64,000 bases of DNA from Henriciella sp. Lineage in GTDB: Bacteria > Pseudomonadota > Alphaproteobacteria > Caulobacterales > Hyphomonadaceae. The DNA lies in NCBI GenBank assembly GCA_013214545.1, contig JABSQB010000005.1:62001-126000 (forward strand), written 5' to 3'. A model generated the notes under the pieces. The model did not search any database. It saw only the letters and a program-made list of their open reading frames with translations, and was not told where the DNA came from. Numbering within the stretch: position 1 is the first letter of the stretch; each line of letters begins with the position of its first letter. Of this stretch, positions 42,891 through 46,997 are shown one piece after another. The translations under genes were made by a program, and so were the position numbers.

Positions 42891-43030
42891 GTAAGCGCCG
42901 TATCCTGAAGCATGGTGGGCTGTCCAGACAGATCTTCTAAAGTGTTTGCGGGATGGAAGCGGTCGGTAGTGATAAATAAGTATCCAATCAGAAATAGATA
43001 AAATGCAGGATTTAATTATAGAATGAATCA

Positions 43031-43050
43031 ACCAATATCTGTATTGTGGT
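43031..43050. promoter_or_regulatory. Imperfect 20-bp dyad upstream of the luxR-like gene
   Basis: ACCA and TGGT bracket 12 bases here, and the same stretch holds a CAATA-N4-TATTG repeat at 43033-43046. It lies in a strongly AT-rich leader (35 G+C among bases 42961-43080), 63 bases before GTG 43114. It may be an operator for the regulator itself. Confidence 0.35.
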
Positions 43051-43176
43051 TTTAAGGGACAAAATACTGCGTAAATAAAAGGGAGATTGATTCTCGCTAT
43101 TTAAGAGTGGGGCGTGGATCAGATTTTCCGAAGATCGGTTGGCGAGTTTAGCTCGCCCCGCTTGGGAGTTGCGCAG

Positions 43177-44034
43177 ATGAGTTTGAACGCCGAACTGCTC
43201 AGATTGTATCGAACCAGCTCCCTGGCGGACTTGTTGGATCAGACAGCAGCGGCCTTTTCAAAAATTGGATTACCGCACCTGGTCATGAAGTGGACGCCAG
43301 CTGCGGGCAGTCACATGAGTATGCGCGAGAACAGCTCTATTGTCTGGAGCAATTTCTCGTCCTGTTTCGGTGACAAAGCGGCGGAGATTTATGATCTCCT
43401 GCAGGAATCTGTGGTAATTGGCCTCGAGCAGGCGCGCTCCAACACGCTTGAACGACAAAATTGGCGGCTTGAACAAGACGGGATGTATCAATTGAGCGCC
43501 GACGCGCCCAAACCCTTCTTCCTGACCCAATACCAAAAGAACATCATTCGTGACTTTGGTGAGCGTGAATGGCGCGAATTTTTCGTCCTGCCGCTGTCGC
43601 GGGAACGCGAACGCGTTTTGGTTCTTGAAGCCAAGACCCAGAAAAGACTCTCCAAAGATGCGGTAGAAACCGCCAAGACCACATTCTCTGTGTTCGCTTG
43701 CGTTTACCAGGGTTTGCATCGGCCGGAACTCACCAGCATCGGTAGCGATACTAACGACGTCGCCAAAAGCTATTTATCCCGACGGGAAATCCAATGCCTG
43801 CAATGGCTAGCAGCCGGAAAGACGCTTTCTGAAGCGGCCACGATTCTCGGCATTTCCGAGCGCACCCTGCGATTTCACGTCAATAATGCCAAACAAAAGC
43901 TCGGCGTCTCGACGACGATCCAGACCGTGGTTGCGGCGGCGCTGGAGTATGGCTTCGATCCGCGCGATCCACGCCGGTCATTGTATCAGTCCAGTCGTAC
44001 CCCGGCGCCACCGGATGTCCGGGAAGCCAGCTGA
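43177..44034 (+). CDS. LuxR-type transcriptional regulator with divergent N-terminal domain
   Basis: A 285-residue regulator. The C-terminal LuxR helix-turn-helix (about 199-255) reads LSRREIQCLQWLAAGKTLSEAATILGISERTLRFHVNNAKQKLGV, the form usual for acyl-homoserine-lactone regulators. The N-terminal domain (about 1-180) has the expected length but not the invariant Trp/Tyr/Asp-Pro ligand residues. I prefer ATG 43177, with GGGAG 9 bases upstream. GTG 43114 would add 21 residues. It is the probable regulator of the adjacent exported-protein genes. Its stop is 19 bases from the end of the convergent gene. Confidence 0.85.
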   Translation: MSLNAELLRLYRTSSLADLLDQTAAAFSKIGLPHLVMKWTPAAGSHMSMRENSSIVWSNFSSCFGDKAAEIYDLLQESVVIGLEQARSNTLERQNWRLEQDGMYQLSADAPKPFFLTQYQKNIIRDFGEREWREFFVLPLSRERERVLVLEAKTQKRLSKDAVETAKTTFSVFACVYQGLHRPELTSIGSDTNDVAKSYLSRREIQCLQWLAAGKTLSEAATILGISERTLRFHVNNAKQKLGVSTTIQTVVAAALEYGFDPRDPRRSLYQSSRTPAPPDVREAS

Positions 44035-44053
44035 GCCCATTTGCCAACAGAGC

Positions 44054-44632
44054 CTATTTGTTCGTGTAGGTGATGTTTGCGTGACCCGAAATGTACTTCG
44101 CATCGACGGTGAGCCCTTTGGCAGGATTGGATGAGGTGTAAGAGTTGTGTGAGGAGTTCTGGCTATGGTTGAACGCGCCAGTGCCTTTTCCGGTTCCGTG
44201 ATCAAAATGCCAGTTTGAGGTATAGGTGACGAGGGGTTTGTCCGCCGCCACGCCGCAATACTGAGAGAACTCGACGGACGCCTCGTAATAATTGCTGCGC
44301 TGTTCGTCGCCATTCTCATCTTTGTAATAGGCGTAGACTTTTCCCAGCGTCGGCGTGCACGCGCCGCAATCCGGCGAGCATTTATTGCCCGTAGCTTGAA
44401 CCCCGACCACACCATAGGCTCCAGCCTTAACTTTGTGGCTGTCGACACTCTTGCCATTATAGGTCAGGCGGGCATGCTTTGATTTGCCGTCGTGCAAGCG
44501 AAACGTGAGGTCGGTATCGGTTGAATTGGTGATCCGCAACTCGAATATCGAGGACGTGGCATGAGCGATGTCGGCCGTCGCCGCCAAACCAAGGGTCAGG
44601 ATCAAACCCGCTGAAACAGCTTTCAGATTCAT
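44054..44632 (-). CDS. Exported protein of unknown family, four cysteines
   Basis: A 192-residue protein with a clear signal peptide (cleavage after AHA at residue 25), leaving about 167 mature residues. The mature part looks beta-rich (FELRITNSTDTDLTFRLHDG, GAYGVVGVQATG). It has four cysteines (NKCSPDCGAC and QYCG) that could form two disulfides, and a His/Ser/Asn/Gly-rich stretch near the C-terminus (HFDHGTGKGTGAFNHSQNSS). I do not recognise the family. AGGAGGT lies five bases before the ATG, the strongest ribosome site in the region. It is divergent from the next exported protein, with a lux-box-like dyad between them. Confidence 0.75.
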   Translation of the reverse strand: MNLKAVSAGLILTLGLAATADIAHATSSIFELRITNSTDTDLTFRLHDGKSKHARLTYNGKSVDSHKVKAGAYGVVGVQATGNKCSPDCGACTPTLGKVYAYYKDENGDEQRSNYYEASVEFSQYCGVAADKPLVTYTSNWHFDHGTGKGTGAFNHSQNSSHNSYTSSNPAKGLTVDAKYISGHANITYTNK

Positions 44633-44692
44633 CTCTACCTCCTGAAGCATAAAGGAAGGTGGCGAAGTGTGCGCCGCAGCTGCCGGATTGAA

Positions 44693-44710
44693 ACTGTCCG
44701 ATATGACAGT
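44693..44710. promoter_or_regulatory. Lux-box-like 18-bp dyad in the divergent promoter region
   Basis: ACTGTC, six bases, GACAGT is a perfect 6+6 inverted repeat. With one flanking base on each side it fits the NNCT-N12-AGNN pattern of LuxR-family boxes. There are 61 bases between it and the leftward start (44632) and 63 between it and the rightward start (44774). On the right, TAGAAC at 44732-44737 is placed as a possible -10 element. Confidence 0.6.
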
Positions 44711-44773
44711 CGAGTGCATTTTGCCGTTCGATAGAACTGAACGCCTCACGCCATCGAATATGAAGGGAATGCT

Positions 44774-45316
44774 ATGAGACGATTGCTCCGAACAACAATC
44801 ACCGCGGGTCTTGGCAGCGCGGCCATGATGGCGACTGGCCTCTCAGGCGTCGCGCACGCAGCGACCGAAGTAGAGAGATATACACATTCCTCATGTGACG
44901 ACGAAGGCGCGTCCTGCGGCGTGATCGTGATGGGAAATGGCGGGGGTTACATTCTCGAATGGGTCGAGGTGAAAGCGCACACGGCTCAACCCAGCAACGC
45001 GCCTTCAGGTTGCTCGGGTGTTGGCAAGAAGATCGGTGAAGATGTTGATTTAAATCAATATGTTACATTCATTGTCCCAGCCAGTTGTTCGTACAAGCTC
45101 AAGCTCAAGATCAAGAGTGCGAATCAGAAAGACAAGAACATCTATCTGACCCCCGGCTGCCAGGTCATCGCAGAAGTCAAAGGCACAGCTACGGACAATA
45201 CGTGGAAATCTCTGAAAGTTTCGGCCTTATCGAATAAAGTGCCGACCACCAGCGGCGGAACGCCCATCGATAGCCTGGGCAATAAATGCGGACAGCTCGG
45301 CTCCAGCGGATTTTGA
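44774..45316 (+). CDS. Exported protein of unknown family, six cysteines
   Basis: A 180-residue protein with a signal peptide (MRRLLRTTITAGLGSAAMMA onward, cleavage after VAHA near residue 29). The mature protein of about 150 residues has six cysteines (SSC, ASC, SGC, ASC, PGC, NKC), enough for three disulfides. It has no transmembrane segment after the signal and a Ser/Gly-rich C-terminus. It has no family I can name. AAGGGAA precedes the ATG. It is transcribed towards the secretin gene, 79 bases before that start, so the two may be cotranscribed. Confidence 0.75.
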   Translation: MRRLLRTTITAGLGSAAMMATGLSGVAHAATEVERYTHSSCDDEGASCGVIVMGNGGGYILEWVEVKAHTAQPSNAPSGCSGVGKKIGEDVDLNQYVTFIVPASCSYKLKLKIKSANQKDKNIYLTPGCQVIAEVKGTATDNTWKSLKVSALSNKVPTTSGGTPIDSLGNKCGQLGSSGF

Positions 45317-45331
45317 TCGGCATTGATCATC

Positions 45332-45366
45332 GGGAGAGTGGTCCCGCTTAGGTCCGCCGCTCTCTC
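45332..45366 (+). other. Stem-loop between the exported-protein gene and the secretin gene
   Basis: GAGAGTGG (45334-45341) can pair with CCGCTCTC (45357-45364), eight pairs including one G-U, around a 15-base loop. There is no T-run after it, so it is not a classic terminator. It could lower read-through into the secretin gene or stabilise the upstream mRNA. Confidence 0.35.
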
Positions 45367-45395
45367 CTTCAAACGGATGATTCTGGCCAATCGGA

Positions 45396-46937
45396 ATGAG
45401 CCAGTCCAAATGGGAAGAGGCGACGTCACTCCAGATGATGCTCCATAAAACCTGGTCCTGGAATGGATGGCTTCGAACAATATCCCTTGCCTGTGCATGT
45501 GGCTTCAGCCTGATCCTGTCTTCGTGCATCGCAGACCCCGATTTCGCCAGTGGCAGCGAGACTGCTGCATTGATTGAAGCCTATCAGGCGCAATCGATCG
45601 CAGCCGCTGAGGCGCGCGAAGCAAAGGAAGAGGCCGCGCTGAAACTGGTCCGCGTCGAGTCGCTGGGAGAGGGCGAGCAGCCGGTCTTGTCGGTGGATTT
45701 GGTGCATGCGGATTTCAACCGCGTGATTGGACGGATTCTGCAGAGTGAACTGGTCGAATACAGGACCGAACTGCTGCGTTACAATCGCCGTGTATCTGCG
45801 CGCTTTTCCCGCCGTCCGCTGGCGGATGGCTTGAATGTGCTGCTGGACGGGTCCGGTCTGGTGGCTGTCTGGAAGGATGGGATGCTCAACTTTTATGAGG
45901 ATCAGTTCTTGTCTGCGGACTCTGAGACCAGCGTTTCTGATGATGAGGAGGAAGGAACGATCGTCAGCCAGGAAGTCGTCCTCAGATACATTGCCGCGGC
46001 AGATATGGTGGACCTGATCACGGCCCTGTTCAGCGCTGAATATGATTATGATGACGAAGCGCTGACCGTTGGCAGTTTGCCAGAGCTGAACGCCGTGTTC
46101 GTTGCCGGTCCGTCTGATGCCGTCACGGAAGCCGTTAGCGTTATCCGGCGTGCAGACCGCCCTGTCGCTCACGTGATCATTGAGGCCCTGGTGGTGAATA
46201 TCGACACGTCTTCTGTTAAATCGCTGTCGCTCAGTTTCACAGATGGGGCGTCAGGCAGGTTCGATCTCTCGACCCTGGTGCCTGGCCAGACGGGCGGCAA
46301 TATTGTTGCGTCATTCTCAGATCTCGCAGCCAATTCTGCCGCGATTACGGCGACGATCGAGTTTCTGGCGGCTCAAAATGCAGCTGAGATCCTGGCCCGG
46401 CCTTATGTTGCGACGCGCAGTACGGAATCTGCCGTTATCGCGATCGTCGATGATCAGTTTGCTCGCGTCGACACGTCTGGCGATGATTCCTCCATCATCA
46501 CGACCGACTCGGTCACGGCCGGGATATCCATGCAGATCACACCAATTGTCATGGCCGATCAGTCCATTCGCATTGATATCAATCTCGAAGATTCAAGACT
46601 CTCCGCGACGGCGGGGGACATCATTATCGCCAAGAAGCGCAGCACGGCGACAACGTCGATGATTGTCGATTCGGGGCAAACCATTGTGATTGGCGGCCTC
46701 AACTCTCGCTATCGCTTGACCGATAAATCCGGCTTCCCGTGGCTGCGTCATGTGCCGCTTCTGAACATGTTTACGAGCGATCAAGGCGCGGTTGAGTCGC
46801 GTGAGGAGCTCGTCGTGTATCTGACCCCATACATCTGGGTGCCAGGCCTCGATACGCCGCTACCGCTATCCGGACGACCCGTGCCAGACATTCCGGATTA
46901 TCTCAGCGTCGAAACGGGCGGTCGCCCCGCCGAATAG
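45396..46937 (+). CDS. Stand-alone lipoprotein secretin (type II/III/IV pilus secretin family)
   Basis: A 513-residue protein from ATG 45396. A signal with lipobox LSSC puts the lipidated Cys at 44. An STN/N0-like domain (about 110-165, RRPLADGLNVLLDGSGLVAVWKDGMLNFY) and a Secretin_N domain (about 190-265) follow. The secretin core ends SMIVDSGQTIVIGGLNSR ... FPWLRHVPLLNMFTSD ... EELVVYLTPYI. Secretins form large outer-membrane pores, and the lipid anchor resembles pilus-type secretins such as MshL or BfpB. No ATPase, pseudopilin or platform gene is near. ATG 45435 or 45438 are possible starts. Confidence 0.87.
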   Translation: MSQSKWEEATSLQMMLHKTWSWNGWLRTISLACACGFSLILSSCIADPDFASGSETAALIEAYQAQSIAAAEAREAKEEAALKLVRVESLGEGEQPVLSVDLVHADFNRVIGRILQSELVEYRTELLRYNRRVSARFSRRPLADGLNVLLDGSGLVAVWKDGMLNFYEDQFLSADSETSVSDDEEEGTIVSQEVVLRYIAAADMVDLITALFSAEYDYDDEALTVGSLPELNAVFVAGPSDAVTEAVSVIRRADRPVAHVIIEALVVNIDTSSVKSLSLSFTDGASGRFDLSTLVPGQTGGNIVASFSDLAANSAAITATIEFLAAQNAAEILARPYVATRSTESAVIAIVDDQFARVDTSGDDSSIITTDSVTAGISMQITPIVMADQSIRIDINLEDSRLSATAGDIIIAKKRSTATTSMIVDSGQTIVIGGLNSRYRLTDKSGFPWLRHVPLLNMFTSDQGAVESREELVVYLTPYIWVPGLDTPLPLSGRPVPDIPDYLSVETGGRPAE

Positions 46938-46997
46938 AGGGGACGATAAGCGGGGACGCTGAGAGCTGACGAAAAGAGAAACCCCAGAGCGCGCCGA

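Follow-up and report, generated by a model that had tools for sequence, protein, structure and literature searches.

A putative LuxR-controlled cluster of two exported cysteine proteins and a lipoprotein secretin in Henriciella and its relatives

Here we describe a cluster of four genes in a 64,000 nucleotide stretch of a Henriciella sp. genome (G000:C84:62001-126000; this whole stretch is the window, and positions are window positions). The genes encode a LuxR-family regulator (P0001), two exported cysteine proteins (P0002 and P0003) and a lipoprotein secretin (P0004), and a conserved dyad lies between the genes of the two exported proteins. An earlier note, made from the letters of the window, had named these parts and proposed that small disulfide proteins are exported under density or signal control through a dedicated outer-membrane pore. 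Pfam searches, alignments and a comparison of intergenic regions bore out the regulator, both exported proteins, the secretin and the dyad, and the proposed mechanism is plausible. The four genes are well supported as a co-inherited unit. Sites resembling the dyad also mark a candidate regulon, which reaches beyond what the earlier note had seen. We judge the chances about even that a LuxR-type regulon is controlled through the dyad and that its products are exported through the lipo-secretin.

Co-inheritance was assessed in 61 genomes, consisting of the Henriciella genome itself and 60 relatives. Secretin orthologues of near full length and at least 50% identity are present in 8 of the 61; the many weaker matches are other secretins. 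P0003 is present in the same eight genomes and P0002 in seven of these. The regulator has orthologues in nine, the eight cluster genomes and G026, where it sits at a contig end in a genome that is 84% complete. The named records of the carriers are Henriciella, Hyphomonas sp. and Hyphomonadaceae metagenome-assembled genomes. Gene order is constant within reach of each contig, with GNAT/RNase R on one side of the cluster and topA on the other; the G014 contig breaks off within the regulator gene, and in G010 GNAT was not detected. The earlier note had held that a failure of the genes to co-occur in related genomes would tell against its proposal, and across the 61 genomes they do co-occur.

Among the cluster genomes the flanking proteins are 90-97% (TopA) and 79-93% (RNase R, seven genomes) identical. 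The corresponding values are 40-81% for the regulator, 54-74% for P0002, 47-79% for P0003 and 44-67% for the secretin, the closest pairs being G010 and G024 for the regulator (81%) and G015 and G024 for P0003 (79%). The secretins of G028 and G014 group together with 100/100 support, and the regulator and TopA trees separate these two genomes. Such differing gene histories are a sign of reassortment inside the cluster but no proof of it, since several nodes are unresolved and the regulator tree has two long branches.

The core pair of P0003 and lipo-secretin recurs outside the genus beside other regulator genes, which the earlier note had not seen. In 105 genomes of the family the P0003 profile (E<=0.01) found nine, the eight carriers and G471, a member of another genus, and the secretin profile (E<=1e-35) found the same nine among 398 genomes of the order. 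In the class sample of 385 genomes the secretin profile matched two, the own genome and G398, a member of another family with two copies. P0002 matched the own genome only in the same sample and does not accompany the core pair. The phylum sample gave 2 of 398 with the P0003 profile, the own genome and a doubtful G1085. The G1085 candidate (E 1.8e-4) has two internal stops and ordinary metabolic neighbours and was dropped. When a widened P0003 profile was applied to 11 genomes, strong matches were confined to lipo-secretin loci, and P0003-like genes adjoin 10 of the 11 lipo-secretin copies found.

The lipo-secretin of G471 is 33% identical to P0004 and has the lipobox C-IASPD; its neighbours include two P0003-like genes (profile match 98.8%) and an AraC-type gene. 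One copy in G398 is directly 3' of a P0003-like gene and has an XRE-type gene upstream. P0003-like genes thus stand beside lipo-secretins in three genera with different regulator genes, and a direct tie of P0003 to the secretin is therefore favoured. A large array of exported-protein genes was also observed around the distant lipo-secretin of G471 (L087:5922-16143; G471:C1:3249921-3260142). It holds seven small exported paralogues and four exported paralogues of 300 amino acids with hydrophobic C-terminal parts, and none of the array proteins scanned was above the Pfam cut-off.

P0004 belongs to the secretin superfamily (PF00263, E 1.8e-29, 102.9 bits against a cut-off of 27.5) and has one Secretin_N domain (PF03958, E 8.3e-8). 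Its lipobox (..LSSC-IADPDF) and the signal peptides of P0002 and P0003 (..AHA) were recognised by eye, without a predictor. The pattern C-x-A-x-P at the lipobox is invariant in all nine orthologues, and P0004 is predicted to be lipidated. The PilQ, GspD and MshL models score it far under their cut-offs. P0004 is not classed as GspD, given 94.8 bits against the 351.35 required by TIGR02517 and no type_II_gspD_N0 match at E<=1, nor as PilQ (TIGR02515, 106.3 bits against 284.35). Weaker secretin matches of 28-30% identity in G045, G047, G041 and G004 were followed up as candidates, and no P0003-type layout was seen in the five stretches. Two of these genomes have separate operons that encode a secretin of 695-696 amino acids and, by eye, pseudopilin-like proteins (L069 in G004:C6 and L067 in G047:C19). 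A plasmid origin was rejected for the secretin, with plasmid matches below 60% identity and none covering 80%, and for P0003, P0002 and one array protein, which had no plasmid match.

The earlier note had stated that there is no secretion ATPase, pseudopilin or platform gene. This holds for the cluster, where none is present and which is therefore not a type II secretion system (T2SS) with its own ATPase, platform and pseudopilin genes. It does not hold for the genome. The contig that carries the cluster also has matches to the T2SS genes GspC, D, E, F, G, K and M, at a distance of approximately 92 kb, and other parts of the genome encode a Tad-type secretin with a T2SSE-family ATPase. With these T2SS and Tad genes present, P0004 could act alone, borrow the T2SS or gate something else. 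Type II secretion and type IV pili include lipoprotein secretins such as HxcQ and BfpB. PMC4471445 mentions lipoprotein secretins that do without a pilotin. P0004 likewise combines a secretin domain with a lipobox, and targeting to the outer membrane without a pilotin is possible. It differs from the T2SS and type IV pilus lipoprotein secretins in that its cluster lacks genes for an inner-membrane machine and in that it travels with P0003-type genes.

The exported proteins belong to no recognised family, as the earlier note had anticipated: neither P0002 nor P0003 passed the cut-off of any Pfam or NCBIfam family, and PHROG gave nothing for them at E<=1. The only Pfam match of P0002 at E<=1 is DUF7729 (E 0.019, below its cut-off), so it is not assigned to the aegerolysin sequence family. 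A PDB sequence search gave no match for P0003 and E 0.088 or worse for P0002. PADLOC matched neither of the two, nor the secretin, nor the single array protein and single G471 protein that were scanned. In the mature proteins the six cysteines of P0003 are invariant in 8 of 8 aligned sequences and the four of P0002 in 7 of 7. The model of P0003 is a beta-sandwich (predicted local distance difference test, pLDDT, 76.4; predicted template modelling score, pTM, 0.74) and that of P0002 a beta-sandwich of low confidence (pLDDT 54.8, pTM 0.54). The predicted folds weakly resemble membrane-binding modules, namely aegerolysins and actinoporins for P0002, with Z no higher than common beta-sandwiches reach, and domain 4 of cholesterol-dependent cytolysins for P0003, with Z at the common beta-sandwich level. 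Neither protein has a sequence-family match to any of these. Several proposed kinships were rejected in profile comparisons with hhalign. These are P0002 with P0003 (0.8%), with the seven small G471 paralogues (6.6%) and with the array family of G000 and G010 (10.6%), and P0003 with the four 300-amino acid G471 proteins (1.0%) despite similar-looking cysteine spacing.

The regulator has a C-terminal GerE/LuxR helix-turn-helix (PF00196), which places it in the LuxR DNA-binding family. No autoinducer-binding domain was found in its N-terminal domain in Pfam at E<=1, a search that a diverged domain could escape, and the profile of that domain had no useful PDB match. PADLOC gave weak CARF/Csa3-type matches only, in part to the helix-turn-helix alone. 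The PDB matches LasR, CviR and RhlR share with the P0001 system the GerE helix-turn-helix and a lux-box-like CTG-N10-CAG dyad. P0001 differs from them in its N-terminal domain without a recognised autoinducer domain, and from known LuxR regulators in its putative targets, which would be exported proteins and a secretin, if they are controlled at all. Upstream of the regulator gene (43040-43113) a CTGCGTAAAtA-like stretch is kept in several relatives and is possibly part of the regulator promoter.

The dyad is 60 bp from the ATG of P0002 and 63 bp from that of P0003. The window contains 22 CTG-N10-CAG motifs against 18.4 expected; since the motif alone is not unusual here, it is the conservation of the dyad that counts. 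The dyad is kept in all eight orthologous intergenic regions, and the sequence around it hardly aligns. Towards P0003 the box is followed by a TA, at offset 23 in 7 of 8 genomes and at 22 in the window. This spacing would fit a -10 element with the box near -43. A box near -43 is a usual place for LuxR-type activators.

A pattern derived from the eight intergenic dyads, ACTGTCSRAWNYGAYAGT, was scanned in 29 genomes of the genus. Exact sites occur in eight, which are exactly the cluster genomes, with one site each. With one mismatch, nine more sites appear in the eight cluster genomes and two in the other 21, and the reversed pattern gives five and six matches respectively. The control is close and the one-mismatch counts therefore prove little; it is the position of the sites that matters. 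Seven of the nine lie upstream of unlinked genes with signal peptides (by eye), six of which encode several cysteines. The seventh, at G024:C4, is short, is close to a contig end and has one cysteine after the signal peptide. At G000:C13 and C72 the box is ahead of the first of two signal-peptide genes. The other two cluster-genome sites are inside a transketolase-like open reading frame (ORF) in G003:C4 and 98 bp before a methyltransferase-like ORF in G000:C51. Both sites in genomes without the cluster lie within ORFs, one transketolase-like and one of 270 codons of unrecognised kind. Mechanical ORF lists place most of the seven sites inside ORFs as well, which in our judgement are spurious frames or begin too early. 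A two-mismatch site stands before a further exported gene at G024:C3 (L112). The gap from box to ATG is 54-69 bp with a mean of 61 (n=15: eight P0003 genes, six of the seven one-mismatch sites, and G024:C3). This narrow range leans on starts that we chose at C13 (the upstream of two), C95 (the downstream of two) and G001:C2.

Some of the unlinked proteins resemble P0003 in profile searches, independently of the box. The P0003 profile matched two proteins of a G028 array (E 3.5e-5 and 0.0016) and the G024:C3 gene (E 1.8e-4); the G000:C13 gene, at E 0.15, is not significant. In profile comparison with P0003 the G028/G024 family reached 92.1% and the G000/G010 family 67.1%. Nine remote proteins were scanned with Pfam, and all stay below its cut-offs. 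The dyad can also serve to locate exported-protein families without a match in the databases searched.

One chromosomal place was observed to hold different exported families by species (L132, L133 and L134; G001:C2, G010:C339 and G000:C95). G000 and G010 have one cargo family there and G001 has another, in three genes of which the first carries an in-frame stop; a box precedes each. The place is flanked by a conserved ORF and a gene that we take to be L31-like, a side lost to the contig end in G010. Different families at a fixed site look like an exchange of cargo. Because different cargo occupies one place, and because the cluster proteins are 40-81% identical where the flanks are 79-97% identical, a diversifying pressure is suggested, as in competition between bacteria.

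Gene order, co-inheritance, the conservation and position of the site, and the divergence are observed. We infer binding of the dyad by P0001, activation, passage through the secretin and what the cargo does, and together these would form the following model. The LuxR-family regulator probably activates a regulon via the dyad that would comprise P0002, the P0003-secretin operon and the unlinked genes for small signal-peptide proteins. Sec would carry the exported proteins over the inner membrane, and their disulfides would form in the periplasm. The self-targeting lipo-secretin would then let them pass the outer membrane or be displayed there. P0003-type proteins may be the constant partner of the secretin as substrate, plug or adaptor, and the other exported families may be exchangeable, fast-diverging cargo, perhaps acting on membranes or neighbouring cells. 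Several points weigh against this model. P0002 was not found in G028, one of the eight cluster genomes. The second copy in G398 (L101:8971-11231; G398:C2) has no P0003-like neighbour and a 153-amino acid lipoprotein-like ORF upstream. Nine one-mismatch sites are not far above five matches of the reversed pattern in the same genomes. The TA spacing is absent at the remote promoters and on the P0002 side, the parts of G471 and G398 that were scanned revealed no box, and the secretin gene has no box of its own, its operon with P0003 being assumed. The cargo may also leave by the T2SS, because the genome has a T2SS gene set.

The secretins known so far are components of larger machines. If a secretin travels with one exported partner and its operon has a control site in common with scattered exported proteins, this would imply either a minimal route of export or a second outer ring of the T2SS. 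The bolder form of the model is possible but doubtful: a stand-alone, self-targeting lipo-secretin would be the whole outer-membrane step of a new protein export route, with scattered, exchangeable cargo of disulfide type (two with predicted folds like membrane-binding modules), one LuxR-family switch and a P0003-type adaptor or gate. That the lipo-secretin is an alternative outer ring, which replaces GspD on the resident Gsp engine for dedicated substrates, is somewhat unlikely. The resident Gsp genes and the lack of any other engine near the cluster speak for it, but P0004 has a single Secretin_N repeat where the resident GspD has three and lacks a GspD-type N0 match, and GspD-like matches are likewise seen in genomes of the genus that have no cluster. 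We consider it quite unlikely that the exported proteins bypass the secretin, with P0004 working as a gate for uptake or efflux and with P0002, P0003 and the array proteins located in the periplasm or at the surface as members of one stress or density response. Shared regulation and shared inheritance do not demonstrate a substrate relation, but P0003-like genes stay beside lipo-secretins in three genera with different regulator genes.

A phage export gate domesticated from filamentous phage pIV is very improbable. The core of P0004 is similar to pIV, which is its best PHROG (3.9e-31), and 46 phage records match. However, the ten matches shown have 24-27% identity with coverage of at most 58%, PilQ scores alike (106 bits), P0004 is a lipoprotein, and no filamentous phage gene was seen beside it among the window genes inspected. 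Viral relatives of P0003 were sought in 12 viral-contig stretches that fitted its pattern, and none encodes one. Chance neighbours with a dyad that serves one gene only are scarcely credible: the gene histories partly differ, but the genes co-occur in eight genomes and the core pair recurs outside the genus. Among the open-access titles listed in literature searches, none describes this system.

Table 1. Features of the cluster and dyad-like sites elsewhere in cluster genomes
Feature	Position	Strand	Evidence
LuxR-family regulator P0001, 285 aa	43177..44034	+	PF00196 5.4e-15; start aligned with relatives
Exported protein P0002, 192 aa, 4 conserved Cys	44054..44632	-	orthologues in 7/61 genomes; alignment; model
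Conserved 18-bp dyad ACTGTCCGATATGACAGT, lux-box-like	44693..44710	.	8/8 orthologous intergenic regions
Exported protein P0003, 180 aa, 6 conserved Cys	44774..45316	+	orthologues in 8/61 genomes; alignment; model
Lipoprotein secretin P0004, 513 aa, lipobox LSSC	45396..46937	+	Pfam; orthologues in 8/61 genomes
One-mismatch sites before signal-peptide genes	G000:C13, C72, C95; G010:C339; G024:C4; G028:606393; G001:C2		

All four reading frames of the cluster are open, and Pfam assigned a family to the regulator and the secretin only. Around the cluster lie genes for GNAT, RNase R, NUDIX and TopA proteins, and topA adjoins it.

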